Below, piece by piece: positions 35,757 to 49,278 of a DNA stretch of 64,000 bases. The DNA lies in contig CAMYMF010000002.1 in the NCBI GenBank assembly GCA_947259355.1, positions 62,001 to 126,000 on the forward strand. Direction: 5' to 3'. The stretch comes from an uncultured Nitrospirota bacterium. Lineage in GTDB: Bacteria > CG2-30-53-67. How positions within the stretch are numbered: the stretch's first letter is position 1; the number at the start of each line of letters is the position of its first letter. The translations under genes were made by a program, and so were the position numbers. Under the pieces are notes generated by a model. That model was not told the origin of the DNA. It worked only from the letters and a program-made list of their open reading frames with translations, and did not search any database.

Positions 35757-37286
35757 ATGATGTTTGACGACGCAGGAATCAGTCTGAAAGAATACTATCG
35801 GCTCCTTCTGCGAAACAAAATGTTCTTTTTTGTACCGTTTATCGTCGTTTTCTGCCTCGTCGCTTTGAGCAGCCTCTTTTTCCCCAAGATCTACGAATCG
35901 ACGACGGTCATTCAGGTGCAGGAGCAGCAGCCCAATCCCCTTGGCACCGAGCGGCTGGTCCGGGAGGACCTCCAGGAACGGCTCAAGACGTTGACGGAGG
36001 TGGTGTTGAGTCGGCCCCACCTCCTCGAGACCATCCGAAAACTCAATCTCGATGCGGGGATCGAATCGGATCTGGAGCGGGAGGGACTGATTGGTGCGAT
36101 CCGCAAGAGCGTTTCTGTCCGCCGCAGGGGAAGTGATCTTTTCGAGATCGCCGCAGAAGACCGGGATCCCATGCTGGCCATGAAGCTGACCAGCACCATC
36201 GTGAATCTATTCATGGACGAAAACCTGTCGATGAAACGAACCCAGGCCTATGCCTCGGTGGAGTTCATCGAGGATCAGCTCAAGCTCTACAAGGAGAAAC
36301 TGGAGGCTTCGGAAGCAGCCCTGAGCGAATTCAAGCAAGCCCATATCGGGGAGATGCCGGGGGAACAGAACAGCAACCTGATCCAGCTGGAGCGCCTGCG
36401 CGACTCCCTGGCGCAGGTCAATATGGAGTTGCAGGAAGCGGTCTCCAAGAAGCGTTACGTGGAAGCCCGCCTGGCAGCGGAAAAGCCGATGGTGGTCACC
36501 ATGACGACAGGCGAGGCGGCCTCGGTGGAAGACAAGATCGCGATCCTGCAGTTCGAGCTGAGCCAGCTGCTGGCCAACTATACCGAAAAACATCCCGACA
36601 TCATTCGGATCCGGGCCGAAATTGAGAAGCTGCAGAAGCAGGCCATGGGACCGGGCGATAGCGCGCCGCCCCTGGTGGGGAGCGGCAATCTGAGTACCCT
36701 CAATCCGATTCATCAGAATCTGAAAGAGGAACTGAACACTATCAACATCACCCTTGGGACCCTGCAGACCAAGCGGGCCGTCCTGACCCGGCGGATCGCG
36801 GAGTATGAAGAGAAAGTGGTGAGCATCCCCCGGCAGGAGAAGGAGCTCGCGGCTCTGGAGCGCGACTACAGTGTCAACGCGAAGATCTATGACATGCTCC
36901 TCATGAAGTATGAGGAAGCCCGCATTTCAAAACAGCTGGAGTTCACGCAGGGGGGAACCCGCTTTCAGGTGATTGAGCCGGCCATCGTTCCGCCCGCACC
37001 GATTAAGCCGAACCGCCTTATGTTTCTGGGGGCGGCCCTGGCGCTCGGCTGCGCGGCCGGGGCGGGGACCGTCTACGGCAAGGAGTACCTCGATACGTCC
37101 ACGCGGGGGGTCGAGGAGGCCGAATCGGTCTACCAGGTTCCGGTGCTGGCGGCCATCCCGGAGATCGTGACGAAAGTGGAGCTGGCCCGCAAGCGAAAAC
37201 TTCGGCGCCGGTGGGTCGCCTTTTCGGTTCTTTTTACGGCGGCGCTGATCAGCGCCCTTGTGGTTGCCGTCTATCGCGGCCTTTGA
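35757..37286 (+). CDS. Polysaccharide chain length determinant (Wzz/GNVR, XrtA-type)
   Basis: 509-residue inner-membrane protein controlling polymer length in exopolysaccharide export. N-terminal membrane segment (MFFFVPFIVVFCLVALSSLFF), a large periplasmic coiled-coil region with Wzz and GNVR features (VEFIEDQLKLYKEKLEASEAAL, RQEKELAALERDYSVNAKIYDMLLMKYEEA), proline-rich P(A/P)xPxxPN before the second membrane segment (FLGAALALGCAAGAGTVYG), and an unusual third hydrophobic segment at the C terminus (WVAFSVLFTAALISALVVAVY). This matches the XrtA-system chain length protein family. ATG-ATG start; either codon possible. First gene of a five-gene run. Confidence 0.9.
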   Translation: MMFDDAGISLKEYYRLLLRNKMFFFVPFIVVFCLVALSSLFFPKIYESTTVIQVQEQQPNPLGTERLVREDLQERLKTLTEVVLSRPHLLETIRKLNLDAGIESDLEREGLIGAIRKSVSVRRRGSDLFEIAAEDRDPMLAMKLTSTIVNLFMDENLSMKRTQAYASVEFIEDQLKLYKEKLEASEAALSEFKQAHIGEMPGEQNSNLIQLERLRDSLAQVNMELQEAVSKKRYVEARLAAEKPMVVTMTTGEAASVEDKIAILQFELSQLLANYTEKHPDIIRIRAEIEKLQKQAMGPGDSAPPLVGSGNLSTLNPIHQNLKEELNTINITLGTLQTKRAVLTRRIAEYEEKVVSIPRQEKELAALERDYSVNAKIYDMLLMKYEEARISKQLEFTQGGTRFQVIEPAIVPPAPIKPNRLMFLGAALALGCAAGAGTVYGKEYLDTSTRGVEEAESVYQVPVLAAIPEIVTKVELARKRKLRRRWVAFSVLFTAALISALVVAVYRGL

Positions 37287-37323
37287 GCGCTCCGGCAGCG
37301 GGCGCGGGACCATAGTTTATCCC

Positions 37324-39366
37324 ATGTACACACAATTCTTCGGATTCAAGGAAAAGCCCTTCAAGCTGGTGCCCGACCCCAGGTTTCTCTACCTCAGTGA
37401 GGCCCACCGGGCGGCGCTCAATCATCTGCAGTACGGGCTGGAGGACCGGAACGGTTTTGTGGTCATCACCGGGGAGGTCGGCTCGGGCAAGACCCTGCTC
37501 CTGCGGGTCCTCATGAACTCCCTTCCCCGGACCACCCGCATTGCGCGCGTGATCAATACGAATTTCAATGCCCACGAGCTGCTCGAGCATGTGCTCAATG
37601 AGTTTGGTCTCGAAACGGGGGAGGAGACCAAACCGAAGCTCCTCTCCATGCTGACCCAGTATCTGCTGCAAGCCTTTGCCGAGCGCAAGGAGGCGCTTCT
37701 CATCATCGATGAAGCCCAGAATCTCAGCCTGGACGCGCTGGAAGAGCTCCGTATGATCTCCAATCTCGAAACCAATACGGAGAAACTGATACAGATCGTC
37801 ATGGTGGGGCAGCCGCAATTGCGTTACAAGCTCAACCTGCCTGACCTGGAACAGCTGAAACAGCGTATTACCGTGCAGTATCATCTTCCCGCGTTGAGTG
37901 AAACCGATACCTATGGCTATGTGGCACACCGCCTCCATATCTCACGGGGCGAGGGCGAGGAGCCCCTTACCCCCCAAGCGCTTCGGGGCATCTACGAATA
38001 CTCCCACGGGATTCCGAGGTTGATCAACGTGATTGCCGATGCGGCGCTGCGTCTCGGCTACGCAGAAGAAAAATCGGTGGTCGATGAAGCGCTGGTGCAG
38101 GAAGTGAGCCAGGAACTGGAAGAACTGGGGGGCACCGACGGGCAGAGCCCCCTGCCGGGGCCGGCGAGCAGCGCGGGCGTGGACCAGAGCATCATCGAGT
38201 TGAATCGGAAGTTCCAGAGCCTTTACGATCAGATGCAGGAGATCTACATCCACAAGGGTGAAGAGAATCGGCTGGCCTACGAACGGTTTCTCAACAGGGG
38301 ACAGGAGCAGGAAACCCAGGAGAGTCTCCAGAACCTTCAGGAACGGGAGCGGCTGATTCTGGAGAAGGAGCGGGAAATACACGAAAAGCTCTTCGAAGTG
38401 TCGCGCCGTCTCGATGAACTAAACAGCTTTCGGGAAAGCCTGGAAGAGAAGAAGGTGGAATTCCACGAGAAGGTGCGGGAGCTCGATCTGCGGCTGGAAG
38501 CGCTGAAGGAGCCCGACGGCCAACACCGGGAGGACGAATCCAAGGCCGGCACGCCCAGTTCCGATGAGCCTCTGATGCGGCGGATGAAGCAGCTCGAGGG
38601 GGTACAGCAGCGGCTCCAGGCGCGGGAAGAAGAGCTCAGTGCCCGCATGGGCGAGCTCAAGTTAGTTTTGCGTGATCTGGAAGAGAAAAAGGAGATGCTC
38701 CACTCCCTGGAGCAGGACAAGTCCGTCGCTGTACGGTTGCGGGAACTGGAGGAGCAGCAGCGATCGGTCCGCAAGAAGGAAGAGGACTTGGTAGGGAAAC
38801 TGGCGTTGTTGGAGAAACAGATCCAGCAGAAGGCCGTTGCCCCGGCGCCGGCAGCGCCCAACGCGCCGGAAAGCTCGCCCGACAAGAAGTTTCTCGTCGA
38901 TCTGATCGTTCGTGTCGACCGGTTGCTGTCCGAGATGGACGCCATGGAGTCTCAGAAACAACTGTTGCGAAGCTGGGATGGTACGGAAGACGGCTTCGAG
39001 ACGAGGCGGCGGCAGATTGAGCAGAACTTTGCCATTCTCCAGGAGCGAGAAGAGGAGTTGCTCGAGCGGATTGACCAGATCAAGAACAGCCTGCAGGGCT
39101 TTGAGGACAAGACGGCCGCCCTCGATGTCATCGCAGAGGGGTTTGTCCAAAAGGAGCAGGTTCTCGATCGTAAACTGGACGAGCTGAGCCGCTTGATACT
39201 CGGGATGGAGCAGCGCCGAAACGCCTCCGAGCGTGAGCGAAGTGCGGCGACGGCACCGGTCCGGCAGGGGCCTGCGGCGCCTGCGGCCCCGGAGTCGTCG
39301 GACGAGTTGTCCGAGGGCGGCCGGCGTTTCAACATGCTTGTTCGAAAGATCCTCAGCGGATTATGA
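37324..39366 (+). CDS. ExeA/XrtA-type AAA ATPase with long C-terminal coiled coil
   Basis: 680 residues. Residues 1-270 are an ExeA/GspA-like ATPase: FGFKEKPFKLVPDPRFLYLS, Walker A GEVGSGKTLL, Walker B LLIIDEAQNLS, and SHGIPRLINVIADAALRLGY. This matches the ATPase found beside chain-length proteins in XrtA/PEP-CTERM exopolysaccharide loci. From about residue 300 a long Glu/Arg/Leu-rich coiled coil follows (LQERERLILEKEREIHEKLFEVSRRLDEL...), over 330 residues, not present in the usual 270-340 residue homologues. The start at 37324 matches the family but has a poor ribosome binding site. Confidence 0.9.
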   Translation: MYTQFFGFKEKPFKLVPDPRFLYLSEAHRAALNHLQYGLEDRNGFVVITGEVGSGKTLLLRVLMNSLPRTTRIARVINTNFNAHELLEHVLNEFGLETGEETKPKLLSMLTQYLLQAFAERKEALLIIDEAQNLSLDALEELRMISNLETNTEKLIQIVMVGQPQLRYKLNLPDLEQLKQRITVQYHLPALSETDTYGYVAHRLHISRGEGEEPLTPQALRGIYEYSHGIPRLINVIADAALRLGYAEEKSVVDEALVQEVSQELEELGGTDGQSPLPGPASSAGVDQSIIELNRKFQSLYDQMQEIYIHKGEENRLAYERFLNRGQEQETQESLQNLQERERLILEKEREIHEKLFEVSRRLDELNSFRESLEEKKVEFHEKVRELDLRLEALKEPDGQHREDESKAGTPSSDEPLMRRMKQLEGVQQRLQAREEELSARMGELKLVLRDLEEKKEMLHSLEQDKSVAVRLRELEEQQRSVRKKEEDLVGKLALLEKQIQQKAVAPAPAAPNAPESSPDKKFLVDLIVRVDRLLSEMDAMESQKQLLRSWDGTEDGFETRRRQIEQNFAILQEREEELLERIDQIKNSLQGFEDKTAALDVIAEGFVQKEQVLDRKLDELSRLILGMEQRRNASERERSAATAPVRQGPAAPAAPESSDELSEGGRRFNMLVRKILSGL

Positions 39367-39453
39367 GCAGGTAGCGAACCGGCCGGTGGACGCTGCTGTG
39401 CTTGCGGGTCGGTCTTAAGGGTTTACCCATGAGAGATAAACGGTGTCGGTGTA

Positions 39454-41079
39454 ATGGAGATTAGAGGTTGCATACAGGACGTTCCCGTCCGCGAGCTTCT
39501 GGAAGCCGCGGAAGCGGAAGAGCAAACAGGTGTGCTCTTCTTGAAAAGCGCGGTCGGCATCGGTGAGATTGCCTTTGACAACGGGAAGATCTACGCGGCC
39601 GAGTCGCCCTTCGTGCGGGAGAAACTTGGGCACCGGCTGGTGGAAGAGGGGACCATCCACGCGTCCGATCTTTACCGGTCTCTTCGCCAGCAGAACGGTC
39701 AAGAGGACCTTTTGCTGGGACAGATTCTGGCGCGGGAGAAGCTGCTGGCTCCGGAAGCGGTAGCGCGGATTGTCGTGCGCCAGATCGAGGAAGCCGTCCT
39801 ACATCTTCTCCTCTGGACAAAGGGGCAATTCACTTTCGAGCCCACGGGACCCGAGCGCCCCCCCGAGGTGCGCGTTGCGCCGGCCGGCTTGATCAGCAAG
39901 AGAAGCGAGACGCCGTCGCCAAAATACCGCGGAGCGGACGGGGTCCTGCGGCTGATTGAAGATCATCCCGATCCCCTCATTCACCGCAGACTCCAGGGGG
40001 AGCTGCAGCGCAAGATCAGTCGGACAGAGGTGTTCGAGCCCCAGATTGTGGTGGTACTAGTCGAAGGCGATTCCAGAATGCGCATGATGGTGCACGACGA
40101 ACTGGTCAAGCAGAATTTCAACGTCAAGGGGGTCAATCATCCGGACAAGGCCCTGTTCGTGATTCGACAGCTTCTGGAGAATGGATACAGTCCCATCGTG
40201 GTGACGGACGTCGATTATCCGCAGGAGAAGACGCAGCTCGCGGGGTTGACTTTCATGGAATCCCTCCATCAGGACTATCCCGACGTCCCCGTCTTGGTCT
40301 CTACGGCTTATCCCATCTCGAATCTGCGTCGGCGCATTCTTTATCTCGGCGGCATCTTCTGTCTGGTCAAGCCGGACCTGACGCTTGTGGCCCCAAAGAA
40401 TTTCGAACAGACCTTTCAGGCCTTTGTGCATGAATTGACCTATTGCTTGGACAGGAGCATTCAGCACTATTATCATGATTACTATCAAGAACGCTCCGAT
40501 CTCATCAAGGCCGATCTCATCGAAGACCTCTACAACACCCGCCGGGAACTGACCCGTTTCGGTGACCAGCTGGTGGAGGATGGCGCCTCCCTGGAGCATT
40601 TGTACCGCATCAGCGACATGCTGGTCCGTCACGGGAATATGGACGGTGCTATTGCGGCTGTCCTCGATTTCATGGTGCGTCGTTACGACCACGTGGCGCT
40701 TTTTCTCTGGGACAAGAAGTATCTCAATGGCTATCTGGGCCGCTCCCGTCTGCGGGCAGACTTCACGGACCGGATTCAGCGGGTGTCCATCGAATACGAC
40801 CGGATCCCCTTTCTGAAACGGCTGCGCGAAGCGAAGAAACCGGTCACCGGCCTTCCTCAGGAGAAGGTGCTGCAGGAGGATTTCCTCGGGCGGTTTCTGG
40901 CCGCCGAGCCGGTGTGGCAGCTGTTTTATCCCGTGGAAGTACTCGGAAAGGTTGTCGCCCTCTGGTATGCTGACACCGTGAAGGCATCGGGTCGCCCCCA
41001 GAACCCCCGGGCCCTGCTCACATTTCTGAATCTCATCGTGCTGGCCCTGAAGATGGACGTGGAACAGAATGGGCGGTGA
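39454..41079 (+). CDS. DUF4388 / receiver-like / GAF-like protein
   Basis: 541-residue cytoplasmic protein. The N-terminal about 150 residues are DUF4388-like (MEIRGCIQDVPVRELLEAA, GIGEIAFDNGKIYAAES, WTKGQFTFEPTGPERP). The middle (about 200-330) looks like a receiver domain (IVVVLVEGDSRMRMMVHDEL, possible acceptor Asp in VVTDVDYP, K in LVKPDL), and the C-terminal about 180 residues look GAF-like (SLEHLYRISDMLVRHGNMDGAIAAVL...). Such proteins are known mainly from gliding/motile deltaproteobacteria as signalling adaptors. Four bases overlap with an early start of the next gene. The start at 39454 has a weak ribosome binding site. Confidence 0.78.
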   Translation: MEIRGCIQDVPVRELLEAAEAEEQTGVLFLKSAVGIGEIAFDNGKIYAAESPFVREKLGHRLVEEGTIHASDLYRSLRQQNGQEDLLLGQILAREKLLAPEAVARIVVRQIEEAVLHLLLWTKGQFTFEPTGPERPPEVRVAPAGLISKRSETPSPKYRGADGVLRLIEDHPDPLIHRRLQGELQRKISRTEVFEPQIVVVLVEGDSRMRMMVHDELVKQNFNVKGVNHPDKALFVIRQLLENGYSPIVVTDVDYPQEKTQLAGLTFMESLHQDYPDVPVLVSTAYPISNLRRRILYLGGIFCLVKPDLTLVAPKNFEQTFQAFVHELTYCLDRSIQHYYHDYYQERSDLIKADLIEDLYNTRRELTRFGDQLVEDGASLEHLYRISDMLVRHGNMDGAIAAVLDFMVRRYDHVALFLWDKKYLNGYLGRSRLRADFTDRIQRVSIEYDRIPFLKRLREAKKPVTGLPQEKVLQEDFLGRFLAAEPVWQLFYPVEVLGKVVALWYADTVKASGRPQNPRALLTFLNLIVLALKMDVEQNGR

Positions 41080-41141
41080 CAGTCGAGTGGGCTGTTCCGG
41101 AATCCGACAGGGCCGCGGCAGACACGGAAGGAGAGTCGAAC

Positions 41142-42893
41142 GTGCCGGATGACGATCCGAAACAAAAGATCGGTCAGCTCCTCAAAGAGCTGAACGTCGT
41201 GGACGATCAACAGCTGGACCTTGCCCTGGACGAGCAAAAACGGACTCGGGAGCGGTTGGGATCGGTCCTGATCAAGATGGGTTTTCTCACGTCGGAAGAC
41301 CTGGACTACCTTCTGGCCCGTCAGTACAATGTGCCCTTCATCAGTCTGGAGCAGTATCGCCTCGACCCCAAGGTGGTCCGGCTCATTCCCGAGAAGTACT
41401 GTCGCCAACACAAAGTCATTGCCGTGCAGCGTCAAGACAACCTGCTCACGGTGGCCATGGCGAACCCCCACGACTTCGTGGTGGTCAATGAACTCTCCTT
41501 CATCGTGGGCATGAAGGTCGCCCCCGTCGTGAGTGCAGAGATTTCCATCCTCAAGGCCCTGGATGCCATGATGCAGGCCGAAGAGGAGGGGGAAGCGGAG
41601 GCGCCGGATTGGGAGGCGGAGCTGCTCAGCACGGAAGAGGTCGATATCGAGATTATTCAGAGCGATGAGGAGCCGTCGGATATCGAGGACATCATCGCCT
41701 CGTCGCAGGACGCACCGATCGTGCGTCTGGTGAACATGATCCTTTTGGCGGCCCTCGACAAACAGGCCACCCATGTGCACATTGAACCGCTCATGGAGAA
41801 GCTGCGGATTCGGCTGCGCATCGACGGGATCCTGGCCGAACTGGCCACCCCCCCGAAAAGATACCACGTAAACATCGTCAATCGCTTGAAAATCCTGAGC
41901 TCCCTGGATATTACGAAGCACAACATCCCGCAGGAGAACTATTTCCAGGTGCGCTCCCGGGGGCGGTTCGTGGACGTCAAGGTGGCCGCCTTCCCAACGC
42001 GATATGGGGAAAGCGTGGTACTCAGCCTACACACACAATTCCAGAAAACGCTGGCCCTCGACTCCCTCGGCATGCGCACCGAGGTGCTTCAGGAACTGAA
42101 GCGTCTCATCAGTCGAAAACGGGGGTTTCTCCTGGTCGTCGGTCCCAACAATAGCGGAAAGACGTCGACCATCTATGCCGCGCTGAGTTATCTGAATTCG
42201 CCGGAGAGAAGCCTCTACACTCTGGAAAACCCTATCAAGAATCTCATCGAAGGGATTTTCCAGGGACAGCCCGACGAGAAGGTGGGGCTGTCGTACCCGG
42301 AGGGCGTCCGGGCGGTGCTGGTGCAAGATCCCGATGTCCTCATGCTCGGCGACATGAACTTCGAGAAGGCCATCGGGCATGCCCTGCAGGCCTCGTTGTC
42401 GAACACCATGGTTTTGGGTCGCCTGAATTACAACGATTCCGCCGGGGCTATTCTCCACCTGCTCGACATGGGACTCCCGCCCTTTCTGATCTCCCAAGCC
42501 ATCACGGCGGTTTTGAGCCAGCGCCTCGTCCGCCGAATCTGCCCGAGCTGTTCGGAGAGCTATATTCCCCCCAAGAAGATCATCGAGGAGGCGCGAAAGT
42601 TCGTGGACGCGGAAGAAATCACTTTCCATCGCGGCGGCGGTTGTCGGGACTGCGGACTCACCGGTTATCTTGGATATGTCGGCATTTTTGAGTTGGCGCT
42701 TCTCAATGAGGAGATCCGTCACCGGATCCTGGAGCGGGCCTCGCGCAAAGCCCTTTCGGAGGCCATCCGCCGCAAGGGAACCATCATGCTCTATCAGGAC
42801 GCCCTCGACAAGGTCATCCGGGGGGTGACCACCTATGAAGAGATTCTCAGTATTGCCGATCTGGAGGCCGTACGAAATCCGCAGCAATCATAA
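41142..42893 (+). CDS. GspE/PilB-like secretion ATPase with altered catalytic boxes
   Basis: 583 residues from GTG at 41142, chosen for AAGGAG 8 bases upstream; a frame extension to 41076 is possible. Domains: T2SSE N-terminal domain (SVLIKMGFLTSEDLDYLLARQYNVPF), then the hexameric ATPase (APIVRLVNMIL...HVHIEP, C-terminal zinc cysteines CPSC and CRDC). Walker A is GPNNSGKT (K340) instead of GPTGSGKT. The Asp box is LENPIK (N363) instead of IEDPVE. Walker B reads LMLGDMNF with D404 where Glu is usual, and the His box is GRLNYND with N429 where HTND is usual. No pilus or type II secretion genes are adjacent. A structural or regulatory role in the exopolysaccharide operon is an inference. Confidence 0.88.
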   Translation: MPDDDPKQKIGQLLKELNVVDDQQLDLALDEQKRTRERLGSVLIKMGFLTSEDLDYLLARQYNVPFISLEQYRLDPKVVRLIPEKYCRQHKVIAVQRQDNLLTVAMANPHDFVVVNELSFIVGMKVAPVVSAEISILKALDAMMQAEEEGEAEAPDWEAELLSTEEVDIEIIQSDEEPSDIEDIIASSQDAPIVRLVNMILLAALDKQATHVHIEPLMEKLRIRLRIDGILAELATPPKRYHVNIVNRLKILSSLDITKHNIPQENYFQVRSRGRFVDVKVAAFPTRYGESVVLSLHTQFQKTLALDSLGMRTEVLQELKRLISRKRGFLLVVGPNNSGKTSTIYAALSYLNSPERSLYTLENPIKNLIEGIFQGQPDEKVGLSYPEGVRAVLVQDPDVLMLGDMNFEKAIGHALQASLSNTMVLGRLNYNDSAGAILHLLDMGLPPFLISQAITAVLSQRLVRRICPSCSESYIPPKKIIEEARKFVDAEEITFHRGGGCRDCGLTGYLGYVGIFELALLNEEIRHRILERASRKALSEAIRRKGTIMLYQDALDKVIRGVTTYEEILSIADLEAVRNPQQS

Positions 42894-42910
42894 GACGGCA
42901 GGAAGAAACT

Positions 42911-43717
42911 ATGCGAAGCATTGAGAAGGGACTGGAAAAGGCCATTCGGGAACGGGAGAACCGGCGGCGCAGGGAGGTCCGTGAACATCGTGACCAATGG
43001 GGGCTGAAGCCTCCGGACATGTCAAGGTTGAGCGCCTATCTGGTCTCGCTGCTGGAGCCGCGATCCCTGGCCGCGGAGCAGTTCAAACGACTGCGCACCA
43101 AGATCCTGCAGCAGATGAAGACCCGCATGGAGAGTCTGATCCTCGTCACGAGTGCCATTCAGGGTGAGGGCAAGACGACGACCGCGCTCAATCTGGCGAT
43201 CACCATCGCCCAAGGGATGAGTGAGTCGGTGTTGCTGGTGGATACGGATGTGCGCAAACCGGGTCTGCACACCCATCTCGGTATCGAAGCCAAGCAGGGG
43301 CTCGTCGATTACCTGCAGGGAGAGCAGGCCCTCTCGGAAATTCTAATGCCGACGGAAATCCCGAAGCTGACGCTCCTGCCCTCGGGGAAGCCGCCGGAGA
43401 ACCCCTCCGAGCTGCTGGCTTCCGACCGGATGAGCGATCTGCTCCATGAGATAAAGACCCGTTATGAGAACCGTTACGTGGTCATCGATTCTTCGCCCAT
43501 CAATGTCTTTACCGATACGGCCATCCTCGCTCCCCAGGTGGATGGGGTGCTGCTCGTGGTCCAGGACGGTGCCACACCTCGCGATTATGTCGTAAGAGCC
43601 CTGTCGCAGATCAATCATGAGAATCTGCTCGGTATCTGCCTCAATCAGATCTCGGCGCCGGAGTCGCTACAGGACAGCTACTACTACTATTCCAATTACG
43701 CCAACTACGGGAAGTAG
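42911..43717 (+). CDS. Tyrosine autokinase-type ATPase (CpsD/CapB family)
   Basis: 268-residue cytoplasmic P-loop ATPase that partners with Wzz-type membrane proteins. Walker A SAIQGEGKTTTALNLA, Walker A' VLLVDTDVRKPGLH, and Walker B YVVIDSSP are intact. A tyrosine-rich tail (YYYYSNYANYGK) is the typical autophosphorylation cluster. A basic N-terminal extension (RERENRRRREVREHRD) is present. AGGAAG lies 5 bases before ATG at 42911. Last gene of the operon; cycles of phosphorylation are expected to control polymer synthesis. Confidence 0.92.
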   Translation: MRSIEKGLEKAIRERENRRRREVREHRDQWGLKPPDMSRLSAYLVSLLEPRSLAAEQFKRLRTKILQQMKTRMESLILVTSAIQGEGKTTTALNLAITIAQGMSESVLLVDTDVRKPGLHTHLGIEAKQGLVDYLQGEQALSEILMPTEIPKLTLLPSGKPPENPSELLASDRMSDLLHEIKTRYENRYVVIDSSPINVFTDTAILAPQVDGVLLVVQDGATPRDYVVRALSQINHENLLGICLNQISAPESLQDSYYYYSNYANYGK

Positions 43718-43749: not shown

Positions 43750-44103
43750 CTATGGCTCGAGGACGTCGCGGATTTTCTGCTTCAGCTCGGTGAACTCGGA
43801 GCTTTTCACGACATAATGGTCGGCAGCCACGGCAGAGAAGTCCGTCTGGTAGGTGCTGTAGGCGGAGCAGAGAATGACCGGTAGGTCGTAGGAACGCTCC
43901 CGGATCTTGCGCAGAGCCATCAGGCCGTCTTCGCCCGGCATCTTGATGTCCAGGGTCACCAGATCGGGGCGAGCGCTCTCGATCAGCTGTAGTGCGGTTG
44001 CGGCGTTTTCGGCAGTGATCACCTCATAGCCTTCGTCTTCGAGTTCCTCCTTCAGAAGAAGCCGAATATTTTCCTCATCATCTACGACGAGAATCTTTTT
44101 CAT
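43750..44103 (-). CDS. Single-domain response regulator (CheY-like)
   Basis: 117-residue receiver domain without output domain. Acidic pair LVVDDEEN, phospho-acceptor Asp in LVTLDIKMPG (about residue 52), signalling Ser in ILCSAYST, Lys in VVKSSEF. Its ATG overlaps the stop of the upstream glycosyltransferase gene (ATGA), so it is translated with the glycosyltransferase cluster. Its kinase is not next to it; the PocR kinase and the hybrid kinase in this window are possible partners by inference only. Confidence 0.93.
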   Translation of the reverse strand: MKKILVVDDEENIRLLLKEELEDEGYEVITAENAATALQLIESARPDLVTLDIKMPGEDGLMALRKIRERSYDLPVILCSAYSTYQTDFSAVAADHYVVKSSEFTELKQKIRDVLEP

Positions 44104-45395
44104 GATGCTCCCCTCCGTGCCGGCGGCGTCGGCCAGCGTGCAATCAGGTAGGGCTTCAGTTTTTCAAAGGTTTCGCACACATCGTTCACCTGGGCTTCCG
44201 CCATGCGGGAGTCCATCTGGCGCGTCTTTTCGACGAAGGTGGCGACGGCCGCGAAGTAGATGGGCACCAGTGCCTGCAGCAACGAATCCGGCGCGGCGGT
44301 CCCGCCGTGAAAGGCCGCAGCAAAATCATAGACCGACCGGACCCACACGTCCGTCGGCAGTTCGAAGTGGCGGCCCCGCCCCCGGGCGACTTCCATGACT
44401 TTGTAGTAGTTGGACCGCTCCAGGATTTGCTTCCAGCGCTCGCGATGCTCCCGAGCGCCGCGTTCAAACAGGTGTACGAGATTGTCCAGATCCACGGAGA
44501 CGGGCCTGGGAGTCACCTCCGTTTCGAAACCGAAAATGGCTGTCGGTCGGCTCCCCTTCTGGTCCCGCCAGGTCGGTTCATACATGCCCATGAGCGTGAA
44601 GAGGGTGCCCACGACCTGGGCAAACATCGCCGCGAGGTGCCTGCCCGGATCCTTGTCTTCATGGATTTTCGCGCCCAGGAAGGATTGACAGATCTTGAAC
44701 TTCTCCTGCATGGCCACCGTGGTCATCCAGATGTCGATACCGAACCGAGCGATGTCGCTGTCCCACACGTCCCGGGAAAGCAAGGTGTCTGCCAGTCGCG
44801 GGGAGAAACCGAAATCCCCGCCGATGGGTTGGCGCACGCGCCGGCCGTAGAGGGCGCGAGTCAGCGGGTAGGCGATGAGGTTGGTGATGGTGCCGTCGTA
44901 TTTGTGCCGAGCGTAGTAGGGTGTGACGAAGCCAAACCCTTTCTTGAGAATGGGGGTGATCAACAGCTCCATCCATTCCGGCGAGATGCTCCGAAGGTCT
45001 GAATCGACCACCGCGCAGGCCTGCACGTTCAAGACGCCCGCCGCTTCGAGAATGGCCTTGATGGCCGTGCCCTTGCCGGAATGTCCCAGATAGTCAGTGG
45101 CGACGACGTCCGTAGGCTTTTCGGGTGGGGAGAGCAGGCTCTGCTCCAAGAGTTGTGCCATGGGGAGTGCCGCGATGGCCTTACGGACAGCGTCGGCCTC
45201 ACCGCCCTCGGCGATGAATACCACTCCTTTGCGCTCGGGGAAATACTTGGCCAGTCCCAGAAGGCAGGCTTTGACAACCTGTCCGATGGAGTGCACGCTT
45301 TGAAAGCTTGGAATGCCAATGAGGATCTCCGCCTGACCGATACGGTGCAGATCGGTCCTTGCCTTCGGATCGAGTGCGGATTCAGCGCGCGCCAT
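44100..45395 (-). CDS. Glycosyltransferase, mannosylglycerate synthase-like (paralog 2)
   Basis: 431-residue GT-A fold enzyme. N-terminal ILIGIPSFQSVHSIGQVVKA, donor/metal motif VVDSDLRSISPEWM, then YDGTITNLIAYPLTRALYGRRVRQPIGGDFGFSP and FGIDIWMTT, followed by an acceptor region with IHEDKDPGRHLAAMFAQVVGTLFTL. The order IEQPLGGE, DWGIDT, H, DDL in mannosylglycerate synthase of Rhodothermus (GT78) is closely paralleled. It shares these motifs with the product at 46327-47607. The start is ATG at 45395 with GGAAAG upstream. Precise sugar and acceptor unknown. Confidence 0.82.
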   Translation of the reverse strand: MARAESALDPKARTDLHRIGQAEILIGIPSFQSVHSIGQVVKACLLGLAKYFPERKGVVFIAEGGEADAVRKAIAALPMAQLLEQSLLSPPEKPTDVVATDYLGHSGKGTAIKAILEAAGVLNVQACAVVDSDLRSISPEWMELLITPILKKGFGFVTPYYARHKYDGTITNLIAYPLTRALYGRRVRQPIGGDFGFSPRLADTLLSRDVWDSDIARFGIDIWMTTVAMQEKFKICQSFLGAKIHEDKDPGRHLAAMFAQVVGTLFTLMGMYEPTWRDQKGSRPTAIFGFETEVTPRPVSVDLDNLVHLFERGAREHRERWKQILERSNYYKVMEVARGRGRHFELPTDVWVRSVYDFAAAFHGGTAAPDSLLQALVPIYFAAVATFVEKTRQMDSRMAEAQVNDVCETFEKLKPYLIARWPTPPARRGAS

Positions 45396-45500
45396 GGTGT
45401 TTTCTTTCCACCGCGAAGGGACCGGGACCCCTGTGGGCCTCCGCCCGGTCTGTTGCCTGCGGATCGCCTCGTGAACCGTACAAAAGATCCGACCCTTCTG

Positions 45501-46301
45501 TCAAGGGCGTTCGCGAAAAATGTGCACCGCCTGCGCGAACCCTTCGGGCCCAATACCGTCTGTGCAGACCACGCCTTCGAAGCAGGCCGCTTGGTCATGA
45601 GTGCCGTCCGGCCTGCGGACCAAATAGGGGCAATCCACGGCGCGCAGCATGGAGAGATCGTTGCCGGCGTCGCCCACCGCTGCAAAGAGTGTATCAGCCT
45701 GGCGCTGCCGGTAGAGGGTCATGAGGCGCGCGACGGCCCGACCCTTGTCGCAGTCGCCCAGGATATGATAAAAGCGTCCTCCTCGGGTGAGGGTCAGGCC
45801 GGCCGCAGCAACGCTGTCCTCCAGGCAGCGGAGCAGGGGGGGCGCTTCATTTTCGATGCGAAAGGGCTCATCATATTCACGCATGCGGGCCAGACGGGCA
45901 TCCGGCTCTGAAAGCCCGGTCCAGCGTATGATCTCGGCCAGCGACATGGAGGAGAAGCCGCGGACCGTCGCGCCGCAGCGGGCCGCTGCGCGCTGCAGGA
46001 CGGTAACCAGGGTCGGGTGGGGTGTGCCCATGGCCAGAATCCAGAAGGGACCGTCCCCGTGAAAGCCCGGCGGCTTCTGCCACGCCTCCTGGGGGAGAAA
46101 GATGGCGCCGCCGTTTTCGGAAACAAAGGGCCCGCGATGCTCGAGGCGGCTGCGCAGTGCCACCATCTCAGCCCGGGTCTTGCTGGAAACGAAGACAACC
46201 GGAATGTCGGCCTGCCGACAGACCTGCAGCGCTGTCGCTGCGGCGCCCAACTCATAGGTGTCGGCCGAGAGAAGGGTGCCGTCGAGGTCGGTGAAGATCA
46301 C
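45501..46301 (-). CDS. HAD phosphatase, mannosyl-3-phosphoglycerate phosphatase family
   Basis: 266-residue HAD-IIB enzyme. Motif I is VIFTDLDGTLL at the very N terminus, motif II PVVFVSSKTRAEM, the cap has FVSENGGAIFLP, and motif III/IV are GDCDKGRAVARL and FAAVGDAGNDLSML. MpgP/GpgP enzymes dephosphorylate mannosyl- or glucosyl-3-phosphoglycerate to the free glycerate glycoside. The start is GTG at 46301, 25 bases after the upstream glycosyltransferase stop; no clear ribosome binding site, so coupling is likely. Context with a GpgS-like enzyme supports the role. Confidence 0.85.
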   Translation of the reverse strand: MIFTDLDGTLLSADTYELGAAATALQVCRQADIPVVFVSSKTRAEMVALRSRLEHRGPFVSENGGAIFLPQEAWQKPPGFHGDGPFWILAMGTPHPTLVTVLQRAAARCGATVRGFSSMSLAEIIRWTGLSEPDARLARMREYDEPFRIENEAPPLLRCLEDSVAAAGLTLTRGGRFYHILGDCDKGRAVARLMTLYRQRQADTLFAAVGDAGNDLSMLRAVDCPYLVRRPDGTHDQAACFEGVVCTDGIGPEGFAQAVHIFRERP

Positions 46302-46326
46302 GCGGGACGGCCGTGGCGGCCCCCCT

Positions 46327-47607
46327 TCAGACCTGCTGGAGATGATCGTTGACGGCTTCGTCTTCTTCAAAGGGGGTGTCCCAGAGTCGGCGAAGATAAT
46401 CCTTGTTCTCCTCGAACTTGCGGGCCTGTTCTTCCACCACCTGCTCGGCCTCATCCGAATCCATGTCGCGGGTGCGGTTGATGAAGGATGCGACCCGCCC
46501 GAAGTAGAGGGGAATGGCCAGTTCCAGGAGCCGATGCCGGTTGTTCCGCCATTTGTGATAAGTCGAGGCGAGTTCGTAGAGAATTCGGATCCAGCTGTCC
46601 GTCTCGAAGATAAACCTGCTCGGCGCAAGGCGCGCTGCTTTGTTTATCATTCCGTAGGACTCGGGCGAGAAGATCTTTTCATACAACACCCCGAAATTCC
46701 GGTGCCCCGCTTTGAAGCGCGAGACGAGCAGTTCCTGATTGACGGGGATGGCCTCGGGGATCACGGTGCCGGGGATGCCGAAGATCTCCGTCGGGCTGGA
46801 TCCCTCCACACCCTTCCAGAACCCTTCATTGGCCTCCATCAGGTCAAAGAGTGTTCCGATGACCTGCCGGAACATGGCCGCCAGGTGCGAGGCCGGGTCT
46901 TTCGCGTCGTGCACCTTGACGCCCAAGTGGGACTGGCAGATCTTGAAGTCGTTGATGATGGCACTGGTTGTCATCCAGATGTCGATCCCGAAGCGGGCCA
47001 CGTCGGTGCCCCAGACGTTCTGGGCTAGGAAATGGCGGATACAGTCGGGTGAAAAGGCGAAGTCGCCCCCGATGGGTTGGCGGATCCGCTTGCCGTAGAG
47101 GGCCCGCGTCAAGTTGTACGTGATGTTGTTGGTGATGGTGCCGTCGTATTTGTAGCGTGTATAGATGGGAGTGACGAAGTCGAAGCCGCGCGCCAAAACA
47201 GGTTCCAGAAGATAGTGGACCCAGTCGGCGGTGATACTGCGCAGATCCGAATCGACGACCATGCATGTCTTGACGTCAAGACGATGGGCCGCCTCCAGGA
47301 TGGATCGCAGGGCAGTCCCCTTGCCGGGCTCACCGCGATAGATGCTGACGATTTTTTCCTGCCAGGGTTTGATCTCAAACTCTTTGGCCATGTCGCGGCT
47401 GTCATCGGTGGAGCCGCCGTCGGCCACCATGATAACGGCGCGGCGGTCGCCGTAGAAGTCTTTCAGCCCGTGGGACACCATCTGGATGACATGGGCAATG
47501 GTGGCGTCGGTGTTGTAGCAGGGGATGCCGACCAGGATGTCGGCATGGTCGATTTCTTCCACCCGTTTGGTGGTGTAGGGCCTCAAGGATGTGTCATAGT
47601 TTCGCAC
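46327..47607 (-). CDS. Glycosyltransferase, mannosylglycerate synthase-like (paralog 1)
   Basis: 426-residue enzyme from GTG at 47607 (GGGGGAAGG upstream). ILVGIPCYNTDATIAHVIQM, VADGGSTDDSRDMA, MVVDSDLRSITADWV, YKYDGTITNNITYNLTRALYG, RQPIGGDFAFSP and FGIDIWMTTS are visible, then a conserved His in VKVHDAKDPASHLAAMF. Clearly a paralog of the product at 44100-45395, with the phosphatase gene between them. Probably transfers mannose or glucose from an NDP-sugar to glycerate or glucosylglycerate (inference from similarity to GT78 mannosylglycerate synthase). Confidence 0.82.
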   Translation of the reverse strand: MRNYDTSLRPYTTKRVEEIDHADILVGIPCYNTDATIAHVIQMVSHGLKDFYGDRRAVIMVADGGSTDDSRDMAKEFEIKPWQEKIVSIYRGEPGKGTALRSILEAAHRLDVKTCMVVDSDLRSITADWVHYLLEPVLARGFDFVTPIYTRYKYDGTITNNITYNLTRALYGKRIRQPIGGDFAFSPDCIRHFLAQNVWGTDVARFGIDIWMTTSAIINDFKICQSHLGVKVHDAKDPASHLAAMFRQVIGTLFDLMEANEGFWKGVEGSSPTEIFGIPGTVIPEAIPVNQELLVSRFKAGHRNFGVLYEKIFSPESYGMINKAARLAPSRFIFETDSWIRILYELASTYHKWRNNRHRLLELAIPLYFGRVASFINRTRDMDSDEAEQVVEEQARKFEENKDYLRRLWDTPFEEDEAVNDHLQQV

Positions 47608-47699
47608 GGTCCTTCCCCCTGGTGTTGCGTCCCCCTTGGCGAATACGAGACGATTCTCACCCGCCTTCAATACGGCGCCATCGGGGTGAATGAGACCCG

Positions 47700-48908
47700 T
47701 TAGCCGTTGTCCCGCCGCACGACCTCCAGCAGCTTCTCGGCGAAGTTTGGGATCGCTGCAAAGACCCGGTTCCATGCCGGGATTTCCGGTGGCCCCAAGG
47801 GGTCCTCGGTGATGATTCGTCCCGCCCGGTCGATGGCCTCGATGAAGACTTCTACGGCGATGCCTTCCTCATGCCGGTCGTAGATCAGTCCGTTGATAAT
47901 GGCATCGCCGTGGTAGCGGGCGATGGTGTCCTGTGCGATGCGCAGATAGGCTGCGCGCAGGGTGTTGAAGAATCCCGGAGAGAAGACAATCCCTTCGCTG
48001 GCCAGCGTTCGGAAGATACTCTTGGCGATGTCCGTGGCCATCCGGTTCAGTCCCGAATGGGGGTCGTCCCGTGAGAGGTCCTGGTGTTTGTGCTCGTAAT
48101 TGTCGCACAGCTCCACTTGGCAGATCCGTTTGACCGAGCTGTTGCGATAAACTTCGGCGAGAACGCCCACTTCCAGACCCCAGTCTGCGGGAATCCGATT
48201 GAAGCGGGCCAGATCGGTGAGCATGGAAAACTCGCCGGCCAAGGGGTAGCGGAAACTGTCGTAGTAGTCCAGAATATCGAGATGCCCGATGGTCTTGATC
48301 AGAGCCCGGATCAGCGGCGTAACGAAGAGGCGGGTCACCCGCCCGTGCATCTTGTTTGTGACGCGGCTGTAGTAGCCCTTACAGAATTCAAAGTCTAGGT
48401 TGGTGGACAGAACGGGAAAGATGAGCCGTCCGAGCAGTTCCCGAGAGTAGGTGACAATGTCGCAGTCGTGCAGGGCAATGACCTGGCTGCCTCCCTCAGC
48501 AAGAATATACCCGTAAGCCATCCACGCGCTGCGTCCCTTGCCGTCGGGTCCTGGATCCAGGCCGAACTCCTTCATGAGCTGATAGAGAGACTCAATGCCG
48601 GGCCCGCTGTTCCACAGAATCGTCGTCGGCTGCGGCAGGACCGAGAAGAACTCTCGGGCTCTGGCAAACTCGTCCACGTTGGTCGGCCCCAGGGTGACCA
48701 CGATTTCGCGGATGTAGCGGACCTGACTCAGCTCCTTGACGATCCCGCCCAAAGCCGGCCCCGCCAATTCCGAAAAGAGCGACGGCAGCACCAGAGTTAC
48801 CCCGCGCATTCGCGAAAAGGCCAGCAGGCTTTCTTCGAGTCTTTCGACATCGGGCGTACCTAAACGATGCAGGGTCGCCACCATGCCGGTCTGGTAGAAA
48901 TCACTCAT
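47700..48908 (-). CDS. gpgS: Glucosyl-3-phosphoglycerate synthase-like glycosyltransferase (GT81-like)
   Basis: 402-residue GT-A enzyme. VTLVLPSLFSEL, GKGRSAWMAYGYILAEG, the metal-binding HDCDIVTY, FEFCKGYYSRV, HGRVTRLFVTPLIRAL, YPLAGEFSML and WGLEVGVLAEVYR align in order with GpgS proteins. GpgS joins glucose from NDP-glucose to 3-phosphoglycerate, the first step to glucosylglycerate. It is the first gene of the glycosyltransferase cluster. The downstream HAD phosphatase fits the second step. The ATG at 48908 has GGAG in GGGGGAGCGGAGGG upstream. Confidence 0.82.
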   Translation of the reverse strand: MSDFYQTGMVATLHRLGTPDVERLEESLLAFSRMRGVTLVLPSLFSELAGPALGGIVKELSQVRYIREIVVTLGPTNVDEFARAREFFSVLPQPTTILWNSGPGIESLYQLMKEFGLDPGPDGKGRSAWMAYGYILAEGGSQVIALHDCDIVTYSRELLGRLIFPVLSTNLDFEFCKGYYSRVTNKMHGRVTRLFVTPLIRALIKTIGHLDILDYYDSFRYPLAGEFSMLTDLARFNRIPADWGLEVGVLAEVYRNSSVKRICQVELCDNYEHKHQDLSRDDPHSGLNRMATDIAKSIFRTLASEGIVFSPGFFNTLRAAYLRIAQDTIARYHGDAIINGLIYDRHEEGIAVEVFIEAIDRAGRIITEDPLGPPEIPAWNRVFAAIPNFAEKLLEVVRRDNG

Positions 48909-49032: not shown

Positions 49033-49278
49033 CTACAGACCGAGTTTCTCCTTCTTGGTCTTCAGCTGTTCCTGGCTTTCCTCATGATCTGGATCCGGAA
49101 CGCAGGCGTCGACCGGACAGACCTCGGCGCACTGGGACTCGTCATGAAAGCCGACGCATTCCACGCAGCGGGCCGCCTCGATCACGTAGAGGGGATCTCC
49201 CTCTGAGATCGCCTGGGTCGGGCAAACCGCCTCACACTCTCCGCATGCAACGCATTCATCATTGATCATCAAGGCCAT
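49033..49278 (-). CDS. 2[4Fe-4S] ferredoxin, Alvin type
   Basis: 81-residue electron carrier. The first cluster motif is CVACGECEAVCP. The second is CVEC followed by an eight-residue insert and CAEVCP, the pattern of Allochromatium-type ferredoxins with low-potential clusters. A charged C-terminal tail (EESQEQLKTKKEKLGL) follows. AGGAGG lies 8 bases before ATG at 49278. Standing alone upstream of the glycosyltransferase cluster; the redox partner is unknown. Confidence 0.95.
   Translation of the reverse strand: MALMINDECVACGECEAVCPTQAISEGDPLYVIEAARCVECVGFHDESQCAEVCPVDACVPDPDHEESQEQLKTKKEKLGL

Follow-up and report, generated by a model that had tools for sequence, protein, structure and literature searches.

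Five adjacent and presumably co-transcribed genes on the minus strand of the window, the 64,000-nucleotide stretch of DNA analysed here, probably form an operon (estimated probability about 0.6) whose product would be an anionic compatible solute of the sugar-glycerate type. This is most likely glucosylglycerate, and it would be made by two routes, one phosphorylated and one direct. In the first route, a glucosyl-3-phosphoglycerate synthase (GpgS) would couple NDP-glucose to 3-phosphoglycerate, and a HAD phosphatase would then strip the phosphate. In the second, the enzyme designated GTa, and possibly its paralog GTb, would pass a sugar straight to D-glycerate, as Ggs does; this sugar would probably be glucose, probably from ADP-glucose. 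The reading draws on the identity and order of the genes, on motifs and predicted folds, and on neighbourhoods that are conserved.

Read along the minus strand, the cluster consists of gpgS (48908-47700, 402 aa, of the methanogen/Aquificota type), GTa (47607-46327, 426 aa with a GTG start, similar to the one-step sugar-glycerate synthases Ggs and Mgs), a HAD phosphatase of the MpgP/GpgP family (46301-45501, 266 aa on the assumption that it starts at the GTG at 46301), GTb (45395-44100, 431 aa) and a stand-alone receiver, that is, a response regulator without an output domain (44103-43750, 117 aa), whose gene overlaps the end of the GTb gene by 4 bp. The mechanically called open reading frame of GTa begins at 47775; the start was placed at the GTG at 47607 because this codon is preceded by a GGAAGG ribosome-binding site and yields a length that fits a 426-aa relative from the same genus. 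The GTG at 46301 is the probable start of the phosphatase, less surely than that of GTa. A scan for promoters and terminators gave signals no higher than chance level. The full order, from GpgS through GTa, the phosphatase and GTb to the receiver, was found again, with 76-93% identity, in one other genome from the genus, which indicates that it is not due to chance. Two genomes of the family had partial sets, GpgS-GTa-phosphatase in one and GpgS-phosphatase-GTb-receiver in the other, and neither genome carried a second synthase copy elsewhere. Thus, either kind of synthase alone accompanies GpgS and the phosphatase in those genomes, and the genus of the window has both.

The cluster adjoins genes at 37258-43717 that, from a reading of their sequences, encode an AAA/ExeA-like ATPase, a GspE/PilB-like ATPase and a CpsD-like kinase; these neighbors are found at the same position in L040 and L041, which represent two further genera of the family. 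Directly upstream of gpgS, at 49033-49278, is a small gene for a 4Fe-4S ferredoxin-like protein, as is also the case in L041.

The gene at 48908-47700 was confirmed by sequence comparison as GpgS (EC 2.4.1.266). Its product matched the NCBIfam profile GpgS_Meth (NF040724) over positions 2-398 of 402 with 365.5 bits (E 3e-109), and the motifs for the metal site and the acceptor (DxD, GRVT and PLxGE) were present as HDCDIV, HGRVTR and YPLAGEF in alignment with solved GpgS. The score is below the curated equivalog cut-off of 700 bits, as is that of GpgS from G144 (363 bits), an Aquificota genome that we take to be Persephonella marina and whose GpgS is 49% identical to that of the window. Because the GpgS of an Aquificota cluster falls short to the same degree, the cut-off looks narrow. 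The phosphatase scored 220 bits against TIGR01486 (cut-off 164.75; the G144 phosphatase, to which it is 32% identical, scores 252), contained the motifs FTDLDGT and GDAGND, and matched 3ztw, a solved mannosyl-3-phosphoglycerate phosphatase, with E 4e-41. Its assignment to the MpgP/GpgP type is therefore confirmed at the family level, and glucosyl-3-phosphoglycerate is its predicted substrate. The initial annotation had described a compact cluster with a GpgS-like transferase, an MpgP-family HAD phosphatase and a receiver protein, and all of these were upheld.

GTa and GTb were 44% identical to each other and gave only weak sequence matches to GpgS. AlphaFold models of both (pLDDT 93 for GTa and 90 for GTb) had the two-domain fold of mannosylglycerate synthase (Mgs), including its helical C-terminal domain. 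Against Mgs from Rhodothermus, the GTa model gave Z 35.6 over 355 residues and the GTb model Z 34.9 over about the same length, with rmsd of 3.1-3.2; GpgS was second, with Z of about 20 over about 225 residues. The earlier description of the two as mannosylglycerate-synthase-like enzymes was thus right at the level of the fold. Assignment to GT81 only was rejected, since sequence profiles ranked GpgS first, but the predicted folds ranked Mgs clearly first. The Pfam family MGS_GT was not matched by either window protein; an Aquificota homolog scored 37.3 bits (cut-off 27).

Mgs acts on D-glycerate in one step. In HMMER alignments, residues of the family to which GTa and GTb belong, here called GTx, aligned with R131 of Mgs, presumably a glycerate contact, and with D135, I138, T139, PLGGE and GID. 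The acceptor carboxylate is bound by I138/T139 in Mgs and by V186/T187 in GpgS (PMC2581804). The models and alignments support the view that both extra enzymes carry the fold and glycerate-site residues of one-step sugar-glycerate synthases. Within GTx, GTb fell in a separate deep clade, made up of sequences from the window, the same genus and one further genome, in which the DxD and acceptor motifs were kept and a DGGSTD motif was lost. This motif of the nucleotide-binding loop is retained in some form by nearly all other GTx members and is replaced by EGGEAD in GTb. In the best explanation, GTb would be a second synthase that has diverged and whose donor-binding loop has changed.

One species-level collection contained at least 580 GTx loci, and members of the family were present in about 25 Aquificota genomes. 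Ten Aquificota neighbourhoods were read, that of G144 among them. Their genes run phosphatase, glycerate kinase, GTx, gpgS, except that no phosphatase was detected in one of the ten. GpgS, GpgP and a one-step Ggs have been characterised in Persephonella marina, according to papers as they are cited in PMC3899277. From its position between the glycerate kinase and gpgS, we infer that the GTx protein of G144 is the assayed Ggs (EC 2.4.1.268); GTa and GTb were 48% and 41% identical to it. The glycerate kinases found beside GTx genes fell into two unrelated families (MOFRL and PF02595), MscS-type channels and trehalose-synthesis genes occurred near them in other genomes, and a glycogen synthase, a user of ADP-glucose, abutted GTx in seven loci. 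In one locus (L045:6438-8642), a GpgS of the mycobacterial type and a GTx synthase were fused into a single protein of 734 aa, and its gene was followed by one for a mechanosensitive channel. A GpgS homolog was present in 31 of the 34 genomes chosen for GTx. Among 60 genomes that formed a mixed set, strong matches showed GpgS in 10, GTx in 11 and both in 7, four of which belonged to one family.

The supply of NDP-sugars, which the initial annotation had named as bearing on the pathway, was present in the genome of the window: it encodes GalU and GlgC (593 bits), together with a ManC-like enzyme that scored 355 bits against TIGR01479 (cut-off 373). ADP-glucose and UDP-glucose, and probably GDP-mannose, would therefore be available. 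A glycosylglycerate pathway had been proposed at the outset, and it gained from the confirmed GpgS and MpgP-type phosphatase and from the one-step synthase fold and glycerate-site residues of the extra enzymes. Further support comes from the family scores of GpgS and the phosphatase, the Aquificota gene order, the genes near GTx for glycerate kinases, MscS-type channels, trehalose synthesis and glycogen synthase, the GpgS-GTx fusion, the co-occurrence with GpgS and the donor-supply genes. Against this reading, no GTx enzyme was matched by name to a characterised sequence. In addition, the Aquificota clusters have a glycerate kinase, whereas a search for the MOFRL type in the window's own genome, a draft of about 90% completeness, found only a C-terminal fragment of 73 residues (L173:1501-1710; G000 contig C18:17930-18139), which is perhaps a relic.

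That only a fragment of this kinase was found would suit a different order of events, in which GpgS acts first and GTa and/or GTb then attach another sugar, either to glucosyl-3-phosphoglycerate or to glucosylglycerate. The phosphatase would in this case free a glycerate that carries a disaccharide, for instance glucosyl-glucosylglycerate or mannosylglucosylglycerate. The rarity of GTx without GpgS, the fusion in L045 and the two paralogs within one cluster point the same way, but the Mgs fold with its conserved glycerate-site residues, the glycerate kinases among the GTx neighbors and the missing MggS family make the addition of a second sugar an unlikely, if tenable, explanation. The suggestion in the initial annotation that the extra enzymes might add mannose to give mannosylglucosylglycerate was not borne out. 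NF041101, the family of the mannosylglucosylglycerate synthase MggS, had no match among the window proteins (E <= 1) or in the genome, with a positive control in Thermotoga maritima, and GTa and GTb are not of this family. A related glycosyltransferase from L043, used as a query, also found no match in the window's own genome, and formation of mannosylglucosylglycerate by a mannosyltransferase of known type was rejected on these searches.

The identity of the sugar in the direct route bears on a further alternative, that GTa and/or GTb are mannosylglycerate synthases and that mannosylglycerate is made beside glucosylglycerate. A published structural argument holds that GpgS rejects GDP via Ser81 and mannose via Ser210. 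In our mapping, GTx has Gly at both positions, so these exclusions do not apply to it and neither mannose nor guanine is barred by motif. The PIGGD loop of GTx is also nearer to the PLGGE of the mannose-using Mgs than to the PLSGE of GpgS, and the fold nearest to Mgs and the ManC-like enzyme would fit a mannose donor as well. However, the 48%-identical Aquificota homolog has the same residues and lies in a cluster expected to make glucosylglycerate, and the ADP-glucose-using glycogen synthase is a direct neighbor of GTx in several genomes; mannosylglycerate is accordingly regarded as an improbable product. Least probable of all, and by our estimate very doubtful, is that the product primes an intracellular polysaccharide or serves the neighbouring envelope-polysaccharide genes: glucosylglycerate primes methylglucose lipopolysaccharide in mycobacteria (PMC4555173), glycogen synthase lies beside GTx, and the adjoining CpsD-like kinase and export-type ATPase genes are conserved in the family, but the cluster contains no methyl- or acyltransferase, GTx genes in other genomes repeatedly have MscS channels and trehalose genes nearby, and the HAD phosphatase stands beside the synthases.

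In the preferred reading, with glucosylglycerate as the most likely product, the receiver would regulate the synthases. It matched Response_reg with 95.9 bits (E 2e-27), and its phospho-acceptor Asp, in LDIKM, was conserved in 19 of 19 aligned receivers. In Desulfobacterota, receivers that are mostly 55-61% identical to it sit directly behind GTx genes. Taking as members of the subfamily those proteins that scored at least 150 bits against one of these receivers, 198 Desulfobacterota genomes, which were drawn evenly yet are not independent, contained 59 members. Of these, 37 come directly after a GTx gene, in most cases 11-81 nt away, and GTx is present in 54 of the 56 genomes with such a receiver. 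The GTx partner in these genomes mostly belongs to a third clade and not to that of GTb. Free-standing members also occur in Desulfobacterota (L227, L229, L230 and L231), near a 3-hydroxyacyl-CoA dehydrogenase-like gene; in other words, the receiver exists apart from the synthase as well. A literature search returned no paper linking a receiver to such a synthase. The receiver is probably a dedicated regulatory partner of the synthases that would act by protein contact once phosphorylated, the contact itself being a guess. More speculatively, and less probably, it might bind the synthase and control it directly, as a switch that depends on phosphorylation, so that a histidine kinase could set osmolyte synthesis without transcription, with GTb as the form matched to the switch.

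The initial annotation regarded the arrangement as undescribed, which holds only in part. The arrangement is largely known, as a variant of the Aquificota gene set in which a glycerate kinase gene and gpgS flank a member of the same synthase family; new are the second paralog, GTb, with its altered nucleotide-binding loop, and the receiver partner. These results place a large, largely unnamed glycosyltransferase family next to Mgs and Ggs, and extend the likely range of sugar-glycerate solute synthesis to Desulfobacterota, Aminicenantota, Planctomycetota, Aquificota and others. The conserved pairing of synthases with one receiver subfamily makes two-component signalling on an osmolyte enzyme directly testable.

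Among known systems, the GpgS/GpgP/Ggs set of Persephonella marina resembles the cluster in the side-by-side genes of G144, whose identity with that species is inferred, and in the similarity of the proteins (49% for GpgS, 32% for the phosphatase, 48% and 41% for GTa and GTb against its GTx). Unlike that set, the window cluster has no adjacent glycerate kinase, has two GTx genes rather than one, and has an added receiver. Mgs of Rhodothermus marinus (GT78) shares the whole fold of GTa and GTb (Z about 35), and its metal- and glycerate-site residues align with theirs, although identity is only about 16% and the Pfam family is matched by the Aquificota homolog and not by the window proteins. One of the routes to mannosylglucosylglycerate in Petrotoga reportedly starts with GpgS and ends with dephosphorylation. 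The MggA/MggB and MggS pathways of Petrotoga are comparable in this start and end in one route, but their mannosyltransferase family, NF041101, is absent from the genome of the window, and GTa and GTb belong to another family. In mycobacteria, the GpgS/GpgP steps that prime methylglucose lipopolysaccharide (MGLP) have the same chemistry as the first two steps proposed here (PMC4555173), whereas the window GpgS is of the methanogen/Aquificota type and MGLP genes are absent nearby.
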